IMG/VR virus record: IMGVR_UViG_3300036835_000701
Span: 1-41,783 of that record
DNA from: a virus
Direction: 5' to 3' (one strand)
Length of the DNA stretch: 41,783 nucleotides
Shown: positions 3,463-17,182 of the stretch, one piece after another
How the letters are laid out: every line of letters starts with the position of its first letter
How positions within the stretch are numbered: the stretch's first letter is position 1
Notes under the pieces: model-generated
What the model saw: the letters and a program-made list of their open reading frames with translations, nothing else
The model's database searches: none
Told to the model about the DNA's origin: nothing
Program-made: the position numbers and the translations under genes

Positions 3463-3510
3463 CTAATCGTCGAAAGCCCGGTACACCATCACCTTCGGGG
3501 TAATGCCTAA
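3423..3510. repeat. 44-bp perfect tandem duplication inside the radical SAM gene
   Basis: Bases 3423-3466 are repeated exactly at 3467-3510, starting TCGTCGAAAGCCCGG. The unit length of 44 is not a multiple of three, so it shifts the frame of the minus-strand gene that crosses it and creates a stop two codons past the repeat junction. It could be a real slippage event in the phage population or an assembly artefact. Confidence 0.95.
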
Positions 3511-4305
3511 TCGGTGCAGAGTGGTGAGTCGGTAGAGTTCCTCTTCGACTTCATAGCCGGGGTAGCCGATCAGCACATAGAAGATCAGGTCATTGATACC
3601 GAACCCGGCGTTCAGCAAGTGGCGGATACCGCGTTCAATTTCACGGCCCGGCGTCGGATTGTCCCAGGCAAAATGGATCTGGCCTGGCTTTGTGAAGCGT
3701 TGATTCCAGACCTGACGACGGGCACGTAGGTCGCCAAGCGCATGAGCCTGATCCTCGTCGATCAATCGAATGTCGAGTCCCTGCGGCCATGAGACACGTA
3801 GCCCGCGCTCGCGAATCTCGGCGACTTTTGGGCGCCAGTCTGAGGCGAAGAAGTTGTTATCGAGCAGGAGCAGGCGATTTGATCGCGGGTTGAGCAAGTC
3901 GGCGATCGCGCTCTCCTCGCGAATATGCCCCTCGATTCTTGGGACTGGACAGAAAGCGCACCGTCGAATGCAACCACGCGAGCTGTAGCCGATGCCGAAT
4001 TCGACGTCGAACAGAGCGTAATCGTTCGGCATCGCGTCGACTTCGCTGGATAGCTGAGTTGGCAGCGGCAGGACACCAGGACCGCCGATCTGTACGTCCG
4101 AGAAGTGGAACGTGTTGGCGACCGCCCGAACCATGTGCTGCTGCCAGGTGAACAGCGTGGAGATGTACACCACGTCAGGCATGTCCAGTGGCAGCGGGTT
4201 CAAGATCACCGTATCGCCTTGCGCCTTGTGCCACGCTGATAGGCGCATCAGGGCAATGTTCGGCAAGCTGCTCCGGCGTGGGAACTCGATCAAACCGACG
4301 TGCAT
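3463..4305 (-). CDS. Radical SAM enzyme, C-terminus frameshifted
   Basis: A 280-residue product with the radical SAM cluster motif CX3CX2C (C112, C116, C119 in CIRRCAFCPV), which binds a 4Fe-4S cluster that cleaves S-adenosylmethionine. The first 110 residues look like the cobalamin-binding-type N-terminus of B12-dependent radical SAM proteins (MHVGLIEFPRRSS, then DVVYISTLFTWQ), though the His-binding motif is not clear. Later landmarks are WPQGLDIRLID and FYVLIGYPG, typical of the TIM-barrel strands. The substrate is unknown. The reading frame stops at 3463 because of a 44-bp duplication; the original end is at 3314. The essential core is intact, so the product may still be active. Confidence 0.8.
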   Translation of the reverse strand: MHVGLIEFPRRSSLPNIALMRLSAWHKAQGDTVILNPLPLDMPDVVYISTLFTWQQHMVRAVANTFHFSDVQIGGPGVLPLPTQLSSEVDAMPNDYALFDVEFGIGYSSRGCIRRCAFCPVPRIEGHIREESAIADLLNPRSNRLLLLDNNFFASDWRPKVAEIRERGLRVSWPQGLDIRLIDEDQAHALGDLRARRQVWNQRFTKPGQIHFAWDNPTPGREIERGIRHLLNAGFGINDLIFYVLIGYPGYEVEEELYRLTTLHRLGITPKVMVYRAFDD

Positions 4306-5040: not shown

Positions 5041-5853
5041 TTACGCTGCCAACGCCAACCGAGGTTGCGGGAACTGCTTGACTTCGTATCCGTCGAGTAG
5101 GCAACCACCATCATCGTGATGCATGCCGCCAACCTGCTTGAAGAAGTGCGCCACACCAAAACCCTGGCATTGGCGATCGAGGTCACGTACCCAGTCGATG
5201 TCGAACGTACGGTGCTTCGGACCGCTCTCTCCGCCGGTGATCACCCAGTTAGTGCGTGGCATCCAGCGCGTGAGGTTGAGTGAGCCAAGCAACGGCTCAG
5301 CGCTGATGAAGTGGACGACGGCGGGCACCTCGAGCAGCGTCTCGATGCGTAGCTCGGCCCACTTCTGGAGCTCGATGCTGGTGCCCAGCCAGACGTTCGG
5401 TCGCGGTCGTTTCAGCCACTCACCCGGCAGCATGCGCTTGATGTTCATGGGTCGCTTGGTGAGCAGCAGCCAGTCGAGAAACGGTGTCTGCTCGATCATG
5501 CCCCACAGCCGCTCCCGAACGAGGTCCATGGCTGGGTTGAACTCGAAGACGTCCGACATCGATGCGCAGAAGACGAGCCGTCGCTGACCACCGCGCACCG
5601 ACGGTAACCAGTTTTTTGTCCAGATCGTGTCGTTGTCCGCGGCTTTCTTGTTCCAGCGGATCGGTGCCTTCCAGTTGGTCTCGCCGGTCACGAGTCGATC
5701 GCCCGACCCCGGTGGTCCCCAGTAGCCTGGCCCGCGCGTATAGTTCGTCCACGTCCGGGCATAGCAGTTGTCGCAGCCTTCGCTGACTTCGTTGCAGCCC
5801 CACCACGCGTTCCACGTGTGGTCACACCAGAAGATTCGAGTCGTGTCTCCCAT
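5041..5853 (-). CDS. DUF5131 family (phage Gp37/Gp68-like) protein
   Basis: A 270-residue protein matching the phage Gp37/Gp68 family, now called DUF5131. The hallmark is near the N-terminus: WNAWWGCNEVSEGCDNCYA, with cysteines C20, C27 and C30 (CX6CX2C), plus an early C10. Downstream landmarks are FCASMSDVFE, LLLTKRP, WLGTSIE, FISAEPLLG and WVITGGESG, all characteristic. The cysteine cluster and barrel-like strand order suggest a radical-SAM-like iron-sulfur enzyme; the reaction is unknown. The ribosome site GGGAAGAAAG precedes the ATG at 5853. It follows the integrase gene by 13 bases, so the two are probably co-transcribed, and a terminator follows it. Confidence 0.85.
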   Translation of the reverse strand: MGDTTRIFWCDHTWNAWWGCNEVSEGCDNCYARTWTNYTRGPGYWGPPGSGDRLVTGETNWKAPIRWNKKAADNDTIWTKNWLPSVRGGQRRLVFCASMSDVFEFNPAMDLVRERLWGMIEQTPFLDWLLLTKRPMNIKRMLPGEWLKRPRPNVWLGTSIELQKWAELRIETLLEVPAVVHFISAEPLLGSLNLTRWMPRTNWVITGGESGPKHRTFDIDWVRDLDRQCQGFGVAHFFKQVGGMHHDDGGCLLDGYEVKQFPQPRLALAA

Positions 5854-10266: not shown

Positions 10267-10381
10267 CGCGCTGCCGTGTCCCGACCACGACGACCACGGC
10301 GCCTGCGACCACATCCAGTACGAGGCGTGCGCTTGCAACGACAACGTCGGCTGCCTCGGCTGTTGGGATCCGACAGCGTGA
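10175..10381 (+). CDS. Small Cys/His-rich protein
   Basis: A 68-residue protein with many metal-ligand residues: CHVCPEHR, PCPDHDDHGACDH, then CACNDNVGCLGC. The pairs suggest at least two bound zinc ions. It is not recognised by family. It ends in a TGATG overlap with the VUT transporter gene. Confidence 0.55.
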   Translation: MAVRTLLYHVMFDHEPEVQCHVCPEHRAFADALPCPDHDDHGACDHIQYEACACNDNVGCLGCWDPTA

Positions 10382-10935
10382 TGAAGGTGTTGTGGTTCGC
10401 CTGCTACGTCACGGTGATCGTGGCTGCCAACTGGGCTATCGCGACCTTCGGCATCGTGCCGGTGGGCTTCGGCCTGTACGCGCCAGCGGGTGTGTATTTC
10501 GCGGGGTTCGCGTTCACCTTCCGCAACCTCGTCCAGCAGACGAGTGGCCGGCGCTGGGGTTTCGCGGCGATCGGCGTGGGGGCAGCGCTCAGTGCAGTCA
10601 TCTCGCCGCATGTCGAACTTGGTGGCCCACTGCCGTTGCCGCTTGCCAGTGGCGCAGCGTTCGCTCTGAGCGAGTCGGCAGACGCGCTGGTGTGGACACG
10701 ACTGCGTAAGCAGGGTTGGTGGATTCGTGCGATGGGCGTGGCCGACCTCGCGTCGCAACTCATCGACTCGCTGTTGTTCCTAGCATTGGCACTCGGCTCG
10801 ATTGAACTGTGGCTCGGCCAGACGGTCGGCAAGGCGTGGTGTACGTGGCTGACGATGGGCGCGATGTGGCTGGTGGTGCGTGTTATTTCTCTCCGGCGCG
10901 TTGACACCATCACTCCTCAGGTCGCGGCGGACTGA
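10381..10935 (+). CDS. VUT-family (YhhQ-like) transporter, probable queuosine/7-deazaguanine precursor importer
   Basis: A 184-residue integral membrane protein from ATG 10381 with about six hydrophobic segments (VLWFACYVTVIVAANWA first; ASQLIDSLLFLALALGS near 130-150). The family marks are the FRNLVQQTSGRRWG loop, the LSESADALVWTRLR helix and the DLASQLIDS motif, all typical of VUT proteins (Pfam family of E. coli YhhQ), which carry 7-cyano- or 7-aminomethyl-7-deazaguanine into cells. The start is set by the TGATG overlap. The gene is followed after one base by a TGT/DpdA-like gene, which fits import of a DNA-modification precursor. The substrate is inferred from family and neighbour. Confidence 0.8.
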   Translation: MKVLWFACYVTVIVAANWAIATFGIVPVGFGLYAPAGVYFAGFAFTFRNLVQQTSGRRWGFAAIGVGAALSAVISPHVELGGPLPLPLASGAAFALSESADALVWTRLRKQGWWIRAMGVADLASQLIDSLLFLALALGSIELWLGQTVGKAWCTWLTMGAMWLVVRVISLRRVDTITPQVAAD

Positions 10936-10936
10936 C

Positions 10937-11497
10937 GTGGGATTCATGAGCACCAAGGCCACAGGACAGACGCCACCGGAGGACATGCTGGTGGCCTACG
11001 ACAACGGCTGTTTCGCAGGCTCGTGGCAAGCCGAGACGTGGGCCACCTGGCTACACAAGCAGCGACGTGGACTCTTCGCTGTCGTGCCTGACGTGGTCCG
11101 CGACGCATGCGCGACACGCCACAATTTCGAGCGCTACGCCAGCGAGGTGGCTGGCTGGCAACCCGTGGCCTATGCCGCGCAGGATGGCATCGGGGACTAC
11201 CCGCCACCGTGGGACGACATCGACGTACTGTTCGTGGGTGGCAGCGACGCCTTCAAGTTGAGCGAGCAGGCCTGGCGTTTGTGTCAGGAGGCGAAGGCGC
11301 GCGGCAAGTGGGTCCACGTGGGGCGTGTCAATTCGTTTCGGCGGATGCGCGCGTGTCACGTGTCCGATGTCGACAGTGTGGATGGCACATTCCTGAAGTG
11401 GGGCGCGATTCGCAAATACGCCTCGGACCCGCGCTGGCCACAACTGTGTGGCTGGTTGGATGACCTGCACGCCCAGCAACGGATGTGGTGCGCGTGA
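10937..11497 (+). CDS. TGT-fold DpdA-like protein, putative 7-deazaguanine DNA transglycosylase
   Basis: A 186-residue protein from GTG 10937; ATG 10946 is the alternative. It matches my knowledge of actinophage proteins labelled queuine tRNA-ribosyltransferase-like or DpdA-like: GFMST and AYDNGCF at the start, FAVVPDVVRDA, PVAYAAQDG, DVLFVGGSDAFKLS, GKWVHVGRVNS and DSVDGTFLKWG in order. The Asp residues in PDVV and DSVDGT are candidates for the catalytic and base-binding positions of the barrel. In characterised phages DpdA exchanges guanine in DNA for a 7-deazaguanine. It is somewhat shorter than usual at the N-terminus. Coupling to the VUT gene supports a shared pathway. A tRNA substrate cannot be excluded. 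Confidence 0.65.
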   Translation: MGFMSTKATGQTPPEDMLVAYDNGCFAGSWQAETWATWLHKQRRGLFAVVPDVVRDACATRHNFERYASEVAGWQPVAYAAQDGIGDYPPPWDDIDVLFVGGSDAFKLSEQAWRLCQEAKARGKWVHVGRVNSFRRMRACHVSDVDSVDGTFLKWGAIRKYASDPRWPQLCGWLDDLHAQQRMWCA

Positions 11498-12318: not shown

Positions 12319-12701
12319 CACGCAAGCTGTCGCAGCCCGCGCTCTTTCGCCAGCTCGTCGACGGCGCGCTGACCGAAAAGCAGTGGCAGCGCCAGGTCGA
12401 GGAAGCGCTCGACTTCTTCGGCTACTGGTGGATGCACGTGCCGAGCAACGTCGTCGTGTGTCCGACCTGCCACACCAAGATCTACCGCGGCATCGCCAGA
12501 GGTGTGCCCGACATCTGGGCCATCAAGCCGCCGCACATGCTGTACATCGAATTGAAACGCGAGCGCGGCCAGCTCGACCCCGAACAGAAGCGCGTGGGCG
12601 CCATGCTGCAGGCCTGCGGCCAGCGCTGGATCCACGCGCGTCCGCGCGATCGTGAGCAGCTCCTGAACCTGATCGCGCATCCGGAGATTGCGTCTGTATG
12701 A
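12315..12701 (+). CDS. VRR-NUC domain nuclease
   Basis: A 128-residue protein starting at an ATGA overlap. The VRR-NUC fold is visible at about 55-115: RGVPDIWAI, then LYIELKRERGQLDPEQK and WIHARPRD. This gives the PD-(D/E)XK catalytic set (Asp in GVPD, Glu and Lys in IELK, Gln in the following helix). A CPTC pair before it may bind zinc. Stand-alone phage VRR-NUC proteins are thought to cut branched or flap DNA in replication or recombination. It is coupled to the methyltransferase gene by another ATGA overlap. Confidence 0.85.
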   Translation: MTRKLSQPALFRQLVDGALTEKQWQRQVEEALDFFGYWWMHVPSNVVVCPTCHTKIYRGIARGVPDIWAIKPPHMLYIELKRERGQLDPEQKRVGAMLQACGQRWIHARPRDREQLLNLIAHPEIASV

Positions 12702-13750
12702 CCGACATTGTGCAAATCATGCCGGCTGCCGAATTCGCGGTTGCCGAAAGAGTCATCGCTGCGGGCCTGCAGACATTTGTCGAGGTTGGTCAGGCGCTCA
12801 TCGCCATTCGTGATGGTCACGGCTACCAGCATGCTGGCTATGTGAGTTTCGAGGCGTACTGCCGTGAGCGGTGGCAGATTAGTCGCCCTCAAGCGTATCG
12901 CTTGATGGACGCCGCACAGATTGCCCAGGTGTTGTCTCCAATTGGAGACAACACCTTCACTGAGAGTCAGGCTCGCGAACTTGTTCCGTTGCTGCGTACT
13001 GATCCAGAACTGATCCCGGAGGTATGGCGTGAAGCAATTGAGACAGCCCCCAATGGTCAGATCACCGCCGCACATGTTGCTGAAGTCGTCGAGCGCCATG
13101 CTCGGCCGGTACCAGAACCCGACTCGCGGCCGATGCGCGAAACGCCATTGTTGCGATTTTCGCAAGACTTGCCGACGGCGACGATCGTCTCGCTCATTCT
13201 GCGCGTCTTCTTTCCTGATGCGAAGACAGCACTCGACGTCACATATGGATCCGGTAATTTTTGGGATGGCTCGGCGCATGTTGAAGTCACTGCGCATGAC
13301 CTTGATCCGACACGGGCTCCGCACGGAGTGGTGGACTTTACGGGTCTTCCATATGCCGACGCAGTATGCGATGTAGTGCTCGCCGATCCACCCCACTTGG
13401 CTGATTTGAGTTCCGGCTCAATCATGGCTGAACGCTTCGGGACCTATCCAGATGCTCAACTCGCTGATGCCATTCAGCGTGGTGTGCGCGAAGCGTGGCG
13501 TGTGGCCCGTTTGGGCATCGTGATTAAGGTGACGGATCATGTCCATTCGCAGCGCTATCAGTTGGAATCTGATTGGGTGCGTGCCGCGTTGGACGGACTC
13601 GAGCCCTATGACGTGGTCCATCAAGTTCGTTCAGGGGCACTGATAGATCCGAAGTGGGGCGCACAGATGAGCGCCTACAACAACGGCTCCACCTTCATGA
13701 TCTTTCGCAAAGACGGCCCGCTGCACAGGCCGAGAGGGAGTTTGACGTGA
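12698..13750 (+). CDS. DNA methyltransferase with N-terminal DNA-binding region
   Basis: A 350-residue protein. Residues 15-135 resemble the helical region found in ParB-like phage and plasmid proteins (GYVSFEAYCRERWQISRPQAYRLMDAAQ, then ESQARELVPLL). Residues 155-345 are a class I methyltransferase fold: ALDVTYGSGNFW as the SAM-binding motif at about 178 and ADPPH at 229-233 as the catalytic motif (DPPH rather than DPPY/F). It should methylate adenine N6 or cytosine N4 in DNA. The sequence is visibly less GC-rich than its neighbours, suggesting recent gain. No restriction enzyme partner is present, so it probably protects the phage or marks the origin. Confidence 0.75.
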   Translation: MTDIVQIMPAAEFAVAERVIAAGLQTFVEVGQALIAIRDGHGYQHAGYVSFEAYCRERWQISRPQAYRLMDAAQIAQVLSPIGDNTFTESQARELVPLLRTDPELIPEVWREAIETAPNGQITAAHVAEVVERHARPVPEPDSRPMRETPLLRFSQDLPTATIVSLILRVFFPDAKTALDVTYGSGNFWDGSAHVEVTAHDLDPTRAPHGVVDFTGLPYADAVCDVVLADPPHLADLSSGSIMAERFGTYPDAQLADAIQRGVREAWRVARLGIVIKVTDHVHSQRYQLESDWVRAALDGLEPYDVVHQVRSGALIDPKWGAQMSAYNNGSTFMIFRKDGPLHRPRGSLT

Positions 13751-15217: not shown

Positions 15218-17182
15218 GTGGTCGACACAACCATTGCGCACACGCGGTATGTCACGGCGGTTTTTGAATCTCGGCACGCGATCGAGCCGCAACACTACGA
15301 GCTGACGTGGGACGAGCTCGCGACCGGGCTGTCTACACACCGCGTGTACGCCTCCAAACACGCCGCCTGGCTCTGGTCGCCGACGCTGTATCGCGCGGGC
15401 GCCACGCGTGGACGCGAGGGTGTCGAGTCGATCAGTCTGCTGGTGGCCGACATCGACGACGGCACGCCGGTCGAGACGCTGCGCTTCTGGCTGCGCACGC
15501 AGGCGGCGCACGTCATCGTCTCGACCTGGTCGCACACGCCCGAGGTGCCGCACTTGCGTGTGATCGTGCCGTTGCTGCGACCGATTCCGGCCGCGCAGTA
15601 CGACGAGGTGTGGCGTCGCTTCAACGCGCACGTGTTCCACGCGCACATCGATCCGAGCACCAAGGATTGCTCGAGGATGTTCTACGCGCCGGGCTGTTCG
15701 GTCACCAATCAGCCGTACGCGTTTGCCGAACGCTTCGACGACGCGCCGCCACTGGACTGGACGACGCTGCCGGCGGTGGCGGACCCCATCGGTGGCGTCT
15801 CGTTCGAACGACTGGTGACCGATACCGCGGCGCGGACAGAGCTCGAGCGGCGCGCGCGCTCGTTCTTGAGCAAGTGGTATCGCGACCTGGCCGGCATGCC
15901 GCCCGCCTCGGGCCGCCACAACGCGCTGCTGGCCAAGGCGCGCGCCGCGGGTGGGCTGATCGCCACGGGGCTGCTCAGCGAGCGCGAGGCGTACGAGGTG
16001 CTGCTGGCCGCGTGCGAGGCCAACGGGCTGCTGAGCGACCCCGGCGGGGCGGCCGAGAAGACGCTGCGCGACGGGCTCGAGCATGGCGCGGCGGCCCCCT
16101 GGACACCCGATTCGCTGCCCGACACGCCTGCCTGGCGCGCGCGTCTCGAGGGTCCCCGGATGGGCTCAAAAAAACCTGTCTCTGTACCGGTCCCCTTAAG
16201 GGAAATACAAGATACAAGTTCTTTTGAGCTGTTTGAGACTGCCCGTCAGGTGGCCGAGCAAGCGCTCCCGCGGGTGGCCTGGATCGTCCGTCCGTGGATT
16301 GCCGAGGGTGGGTTGACGGAGGTCGACGGCAAGGTCAAACAGGCGGGCAAGACGACGTGGCTGCTGGCGCTGATCCGCTGTGTGCTGGACGGGGAAGCGT
16401 TCATGGGCCAGGACACGCTGCAGACGCCGGTGGTGCTGTTGAGCGAGCAGAACCCGCGGTCGCTGCAGCAAGCGCTGTTCCGGGCGGGCCTGGAGGCGCA
16501 CGACGACCTGCACATTCTGTTCTGGCACAAGGTCCGCGATCAGAAGTGGGACCACGTGGTCGACCTGGCGGCCGCGAAGTGCCAGGAGATTGGTGCGCGG
16601 CTGCTGGCGGTCGACACGCTGGGTCAGTTCGTTGGTCTGCGGGGCGACTCGGAGAACAACTCGGGCGACGCGCTGGCGTCGATGCAGCCGTTGCAGGCGG
16701 CGATCGCGCGTGACGGCATCGCGGTCGTCTTCAATCGCCACGAGCGCAAGAGTGGTGGGGAGGTGGGTGATTCGGGGCGCGGCTCGAGCGCGTTCGCCGG
16801 CGCGGTGGACATCATTCTGTCCTTGCGTCGAGCGGGTCAGGAATTGCGACCGACGGCGCGCCACCTGCACGCGCTGTCGCGTTTCGACGAGACGCCACAG
16901 CGCACGGTCATCGAGCTGCAAGGCATGCGCTACGTGGTGCTGGGCAGCGAGGAGCGCGTGCTGGCCGGACAGGCCGAGGAGGCCATCCTGGCAGCGCTTG
17001 GCGCCACGGATGAGGGGCTCACGGCGGACGAACTGATCGAAGAGACGACGCTGCATCGGACGGAGCTGTACACCGCGCTCAAGGTCTTACGCGCGAGTGG
17101 TCGCATCCGACGCACGGGCAGCGGCGGCCGCGGCAACAAGTTCCGCTACTTCGTCGCGCACGACGATGACGACGCAGTTTGA
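15218..17182 (+). CDS. Primase-helicase (RepA-like ATPase fused to primase-type domain)
   Basis: A 654-residue protein starting with GTG at 15218. The N-terminal 180 residues carry LLVADIDDG (metal-binding acidic pair) and HVIVSTWSHTPEVPHLRVIVPL, a pattern seen in primase-polymerase type domains of phages and plasmids. A helical part follows (to about 300). The C-terminal half is a RecA-fold ATPase of the RepA/AAA_25 type: KQAGKTTWLLAL as a degenerate Walker A near 375, LLAVDTLGQF as Walker B near 462, and FNRHERKSGG. The end is a winged-helix segment (DEGLTADELIEET). It would unwind the origin and prime synthesis for the host polymerase. No phage polymerase gene was seen. Confidence 0.8.
   Translation: MVDTTIAHTRYVTAVFESRHAIEPQHYELTWDELATGLSTHRVYASKHAAWLWSPTLYRAGATRGREGVESISLLVADIDDGTPVETLRFWLRTQAAHVIVSTWSHTPEVPHLRVIVPLLRPIPAAQYDEVWRRFNAHVFHAHIDPSTKDCSRMFYAPGCSVTNQPYAFAERFDDAPPLDWTTLPAVADPIGGVSFERLVTDTAARTELERRARSFLSKWYRDLAGMPPASGRHNALLAKARAAGGLIATGLLSEREAYEVLLAACEANGLLSDPGGAAEKTLRDGLEHGAAAPWTPDSLPDTPAWRARLEGPRMGSKKPVSVPVPLREIQDTSSFELFETARQVAEQALPRVAWIVRPWIAEGGLTEVDGKVKQAGKTTWLLALIRCVLDGEAFMGQDTLQTPVVLLSEQNPRSLQQALFRAGLEAHDDLHILFWHKVRDQKWDHVVDLAAAKCQEIGARLLAVDTLGQFVGLRGDSENNSGDALASMQPLQAAIARDGIAVVFNRHERKSGGEVGDSGRGSSAFAGAVDIILSLRRAGQELRPTARHLHALSRFDETPQRTVIELQGMRYVVLGSEERVLAGQAEEAILAALGATDEGLTADELIEETTLHRTELYTALKVLRASGRIRRTGSGGRGNKFRYFVAHDDDDAV

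Follow-up and report, generated by a model that had tools for sequence, protein, structure and literature searches.

The largest group in a 2019 survey comprised 76 phages that carry DpdA without synthesis genes, and it was already suggested there that the precursor of DpdA-only phages comes from the host or from outside (PMC6884629). In the same survey, phage 7-11 was modified with DpdA only; the DpdA-only phage Orion, whose host lacks preQ0, had no modification, and mycobacterial hosts were reported to be without preQ0 synthesis (PMC6884629). Phage YhhQ did not correlate with any group, and phage Que genes without DpdA were proposed to boost host queuosine (PMC6884629). The Pantoea phage MED16, which is also DpdA-only, has dADG in its DNA, amounting to about 0.13% of the guanines (PMC8306585), and the archaeal viruses HCTV-1 and HCTV-16 encode the full pathway in addition to YhhQ (PMC8651126). 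On the transport side, E. coli YhhQ transports preQ0 and preQ1 (PMC5372724; specificity as given in PMC11130926), and the QPTR members described in PMC11130926 carry queuosine precursors. The earlier note on the DNA analyzed here had taken preQ0 synthesis to be part of most known phage systems, which does not agree with the 76 phages of the largest survey group.

The window, i.e., the whole stretch of DNA analyzed, is a virus record of 41,783 nt (IMGVR_UViG_3300036835_000701) with 66% G+C, in which a serine integrase, a terminase and a major head gene are present. The genes relevant here were as follows:

10381 to 10935, + strand: membrane transporter of the VUT/YhhQ family (QPTR, COG1738, PF02592), 184 aa; Pfam, PHROG and profile match
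10880 to 11497, + strand: sDpdA (phrog_15826), a short DpdA-like protein with a predicted TGT fold, GTG start, 205 aa; PHROG, AlphaFold, Foldseek and VIA
10880 to 10935, + strand: overlap of the VUT and sDpdA genes, 56 nt in different frames, a candidate for translational coupling; frame conserved in the related locus L013
12264 to 12701, + strand: VRR-NUC-like endonuclease/resolvase-type gene; phrog_93 at E 1e-10, PF08774 at 22.1 bits, just under the cut-off of 23.8
12698 to 13750, + strand: DNA-methyltransferase-like gene; phrog_24333 "DNA methyltransferase" at E 8e-18
15218 to 17182, + strand: primase/helicase-like replication gene; PHROG DNA primase at E 2e-15, PF13481 AAA_25 at E 2.8e-16

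Judged by these matches, the VRR-NUC-like, methyltransferase-like and primase/helicase-like genes 3' of the pair constitute a DNA-metabolism or DNA-modification neighbourhood. We interpret the pair as a cassette with which the phage salvages a precursor for hypermodification of its DNA, with a probability of roughly 0.68.

The earlier note's statement that synthesis genes are missing was borne out for this record, which may itself be a fragment, as many of the comparison records are: QueC and QueD were absent from the record according to Pfam, and QueE and FolE were absent among all window ORFs according to home-made profiles. A riboswitch search of the window and of eight related loci found no preQ1 riboswitch. 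Two other genes of the window, both on the minus strand (3463 to 4305 and 5041 to 5853), code for a radical SAM protein (phrog_9298) that has a CxxxCxxC motif and for a member of DUF5131 (PF07505); the latter weakly resembles "radical SAM mobile pair protein A". These radical-SAM-type genes were checked as QueE candidates, and neither looks like QueE.

The transporter ORF scored 34.8 bits against Pfam Vut_1 (curated cut-off 27.2) and matched phrog_4899 at E 6e-31. Its score against NCBIfam TIGR00697 "queuosine precursor transporter" was 25.9 bits, under the equivalog cut-off of 50.95; therefore, the protein is a divergent member of the family and no assigned equivalog. A profile built from 32 phage VUTs matched E. 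coli YhhQ with a probability of 96.2% and E 2.3e-9, in agreement with the YhhQ-like identity first proposed for it, and four strong hydrophobic segments were found by the Kyte-Doolittle method. From this family membership we infer an importer of a 7-deazaguanine base.

The sDpdA gene matched phrog_15826 at E 8.5e-42, and its relatives in Arthrobacter and Mycobacterium phages carry the annotation "DpdA-like tRNA-guanine transglycosylase". The earlier note placed this gene one base after the transporter gene, which rests on a start at GTG 10937. The most likely start is instead GTG 10880, which gives 205 aa and makes the gene overlap that of the transporter by 56 nt, because most homologues have about 20 extra N-terminal residues relative to GTG 10937, including the N-terminal strand, because the frame open from GTG 10880 is conserved in the nearest relative L013, 73% identical (VLFLSGALTPSLLRSRRTD vs VLFLSGVLIPALRVSERTD), and because residues 1 to 10 have a mean pLDDT of 96 in the AlphaFold model. 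In L013 there is no VUT gene at that place to constrain the upstream frame. Among relatives, the VUT stop and the start of the sDpdA domain commonly overlapped, by anything from a few nt to about 40 nt.

The AlphaFold model of sDpdA (65 sequences) had a pLDDT of 94.8 and a pTM of 0.91 and showed the TGT-type barrel fold. A Foldseek search of the PDB with this model returned TGTs at nearly all of the top ranks (probability 1.00, E 1.1e-4), and VIA-align matched it to TGT with preQ1 at Z 15.9 over 201 residues with an rmsd of 3.0. A fold unlike TGT enzymes had been named beforehand as a result that would refute the idea, and the predicted protein folds like TGT. However, pyruvate kinase, another barrel, reached Z 15.5; thus, the fold alone is not decisive and the pocket residues tip the balance. 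No usable Pfam family for sDpdA emerged from a Pfam search or from comparing sDpdA profiles with Pfam, and sequence profiles searched against PDB sequences returned no TGT, so that the link to TGT came via structure and profile-profile comparison only.

The conserved motifs of the family are D41-N-G, P70-D71, Q101-D-G, G120-G121, H146-x-G-R-V-N (including R149) and D168-G, and they sit at barrel strand ends in the model. D41, D71, Q101, G120-G121 and D168 were conserved in 63 to 65 of 65 diverse members. Profile alignments together with the model strand ends point to the TGT pocket residues D102, D156, Q203, G229-G230 and D280 of Z. mobilis as their counterparts. In the profile alignments, DNG and PDVV of sDpdA corresponded to DSG and LDVI of canonical DpdA (64% probability), QDG and GG corresponded weakly to the VQG and GG motifs in E. 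coli TGT, and SVDGT corresponded to SVDST in the MED16-like DpdA lineage, whose profile match covered most of the protein (94% probability, E 1.2e-7). The MED16-like lineage in turn matched canonical DpdA at E 2.9e-11. Fold and pocket residues thus confirmed the DpdA-like protein with a TGT fold described for this strand, and they point to sDpdA as a probable 7-deazaguanine base-exchange enzyme.

Canonical phage DpdA (Pfam PF23859) had no match in the window at E 1. The sDpdA profile found nothing at E 10 in the genome of Vibrio phage nt-1, whose DpdA2 protein (YP_008125322) has about 464 aa; it gave a weak match to CPT_0056 of Campylobacter phage CP220 (E 3.5e-4) and none in HVTV-1. On these comparisons sDpdA is neither canonical DpdA, by Pfam, nor DpdA2, by profile; it may still belong to DpdA3, given the weak CP220 match, or to DpdA4, which are reportedly classes defined in Cui 2023.

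A TGT fold with its pocket would also suit an enzyme acting on tRNA, in which case the imported queuosine precursor and a reduced TGT would keep translation efficient during infection. Fusions of QPTR to tRNA TGT are known from bacteria (PMC11130926), and the proposal that phage Que genes without DpdA raise host queuosine (PMC6884629) points the same way. However, sDpdA has 205 aa compared with 340 to 380 aa for solved bacterial TGTs, and the 65 members had no conserved cysteine columns for the zinc site, so the mark of a tRNA-type TGT was not found; moreover, the nearest studied lineage is that of MED16, a phage whose DNA is modified. We regard the tRNA explanation as unlikely. DNA is the more plausible target because of the kinship with DpdA, the loss of tRNA-binding features and the DNA-metabolism neighbours.

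The partners of sDpdA were analyzed in 240 viral loci obtained from three scans with the best-scoring 80 per query, a sample in which a few loci repeat and which is no census. An IMG/VR scan with the single protein gave nothing, while alignment queries did find loci; the VUT alignment was too divergent for use as a scan query. When all same-strand genes within 1.5 kb were clustered with no prior labels, the top neighbour families in the about 240 sampled loci were VUT (68 loci), QueC (51), QueD (33) and QueE (21), followed in fifth place by a DNA cytosine methyltransferase-like family (17). Sampled partner genes were confirmed by Pfam.

The pair therefore recurs in dozens of viral loci, which goes beyond chance. 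In 2.67 Mb of flanking sequence, 68 of 69 VUT matches were found no more than 400 nt away from sDpdA, and all were on its strand. VUT was located 5' of sDpdA in 59 loci and 3' in 14, so that the two genes probably came together at least twice. The absence of VUT within 8 kb in L013, the closest relative, would fit unrelated genes that merely touch in the window, but the linkage counts and the two gene orders refute chance neighbourhood, which we consider hardly credible. On the sDpdA tree, the presence of VUT changed at least 18 times, at least six of them on well-supported branches.

VUT and Que genes excluded each other. The 187 sequences with enough flank formed 139 clusters, of which 45 had VUT within 1.5 kb, 47 had Que genes, none had both, and 47, about a third, had neither (Fisher p 5e-11 for the exclusion, calculated over clusters with kinship uncorrected). 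At every distance tried at most one overlap was found; a kinship-corrected sign test on independent pairs had too few informative pairs and thus low power. In one locus, L093, VUT lies 2.5 kb from sDpdA beside a full synthesis pathway. Of 43 full records, 27 carried VUT, the window among them, and had no QueC or QueD; of the remaining 16, six had these genes. A second short lineage, the MED16-like one, had adjoining VUT in 15 of 42 loci, Que genes in two and both in none. Since HCTV-1 and HCTV-16 have YhhQ along with the full pathway, the exclusion is a trait of the sDpdA family and not of all viruses. These distributions support an "import or synthesise" precursor slot that would feed a DpdA-type enzyme. 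The earlier reading of import plus DpdA was therefore partly upheld: the VUT linkage and the VUT-or-Que slot give it strong comparative support, while its gene start and its premise from the literature did not stand.

Two further genes were observed directly 3' of sDpdA, namely a PAPS-reductase-like gene in ReqiPine5 (L003, 6652 to 7569) and, in Paraburkholderia (L341, about 10611 to 10958), an ORF that contains the ATP-pyrophosphatase motif SGGKDS. They are possibly another precursor-related partner. In the Mycobacterium phage Brusacoram (L012, 3989 to 4607), VUT is cut to 264 bp and the next gene, of 363 bp, is unlike sDpdA; no sDpdA was detected in this locus, and the pair is intact in Bhagsy. 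Brusacoram represents a natural loss and a possible control for Bhagsy.

Sonali, R29Z and phiG7 carry sDpdA alongside canonical DpdA and preQ0 synthesis genes, which raises the possibility that the function of sDpdA is a different one or an accessory one. Eukaryotic TGT is a two-subunit enzyme. By analogy, and given this coexistence, sDpdA could be no inserter by itself, serving to remove or hydrolyse bases or as the partner subunit of another DpdA; however, it was the sole DpdA detected in the VUT-cassette loci with one exception, and it has kept both catalytic aspartates, which makes such a role very unlikely. In Escherichia phage phiG7 (L009, 4741 to 5333), two overlapping ORFs beside the DNA polymerase gene together make up sDpdA, which is frameshifted or decaying.

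Some bacterial genomes also contain sDpdA. Loci L318, L323 and L332 (Nonomuraea, Actinomadura) and L338 to L375 (Caballeronia/Paraburkholderia) have no adjoining VUT or Que gene, and the pocket residues are mostly intact in many of these copies. Neither a clear QueC nor a clear VUT was found in the sampled Nonomuraea, Actinomadura and Streptomyces genomes with sDpdA, although the Nonomuraea sDpdA, for example, looks intact. These genomes weigh against the salvage reading, as do L013, the clusters with neither partner, the coexistence with canonical DpdA in Sonali, R29Z and phiG7, the unmodified phage Orion and the lack of a preQ1 riboswitch. The presence of host QueC did not predict the VUT form, and a host dependence, with VUT phages in hosts without QueC, was unsupported, since the bacterium itself encodes QueC in four of the five genomes where sDpdA is linked to VUT.

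This last count fits an explanation in which sDpdA inserts a 7-deazaguanine supplied by the host and VUT is dispensable or imports something else, as do L013 and the many other loci without VUT and the modification of MED16 and phage 7-11 with DpdA alone. The strict adjacency of VUT, its exclusion with Que genes and the queuosine precursors carried by QPTR members (PMC11130926) argue against it, and we judge it improbable.

The preferred reading, precursor salvage for DNA hypermodification, would operate as follows. VUT in the host membrane would import a free 7-deazaguanine base, most likely preQ0 or preQ1, and sDpdA, expressed from the same message, would exchange guanine for the imported base in phage DNA by TGT chemistry. 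D168 would act as the nucleophile and D41 as the acid/base, while D71, Q101 and G120-G121 would hold the base. The modified phage DNA would then resist host nucleases. In loci without VUT, the slot often holds just one synthesis gene or a larger part of the pathway. The cassette is real and recurrent, and this mechanism, drawn from comparison, is likely; the two-gene unit is likely a cheaper alternative to own synthesis and a shield against bacterial DNA-cutting enzymes. A broader proposal, to which we give slightly less than an even chance, is that of a widespread minimal DNA-hypermodification system in which a phage encodes an importer and a short transglycosylase only, the importer slot can be swapped with single preQ0-synthesis genes, and the genome is modified only where the environment or neighbours supply the base. 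If true, phage DNA protection would hinge on a queuosine precursor that members of the community feed to one another, and would thus be linked to nutrient exchange.

Compared with known systems, the phage VUT belongs to the same family as E. coli YhhQ/QPTR according to the profile match, and it is shorter (184 vs 221 aa). CPT_0056 of CP220 (258 aa) shows LDNS, PDALGD, VQG and SLDTS motifs and is not closely similar to sDpdA; this gene (L388, 2176 to 2952) is annotated only as hypothetical, is TGT-like and is a candidate base-exchange enzyme. The MED16 genome was matched by the sDpdA profile at E 2.7e-7. Its DpdA, like that of the window, occurs without synthesis genes, and VUT is found next to relatives in its lineage as well; however, it has about 261 aa, its lineage has WH where sDpdA has QDG, and no VUT is annotated within about 1 kb of the MED16 gene. 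The proteins of Sonali, Aoka and Bhagsy named "DpdA-like tRNA-guanine transglycosylase" by SEA-PHAGES, together with ReqiPine5 gp03, belong to the sDpdA family (39 to 44% identical). In Aoka, Bhagsy and ReqiPine5 a VUT gene adjoins sDpdA and is annotated merely as a membrane protein, so that sequenced laboratory phages carry the unit; we found no paper treating VUT and sDpdA as one unit. The DpdA-only "third group" phages of the 2019 survey resemble the window in having a DpdA-type gene without preQ0 synthesis, whereas the present loci show one particular short DpdA family in close association with VUT. The pair would thereby turn the 2019 guess of an outside precursor for DpdA-only phages into a defined, testable two-gene unit.
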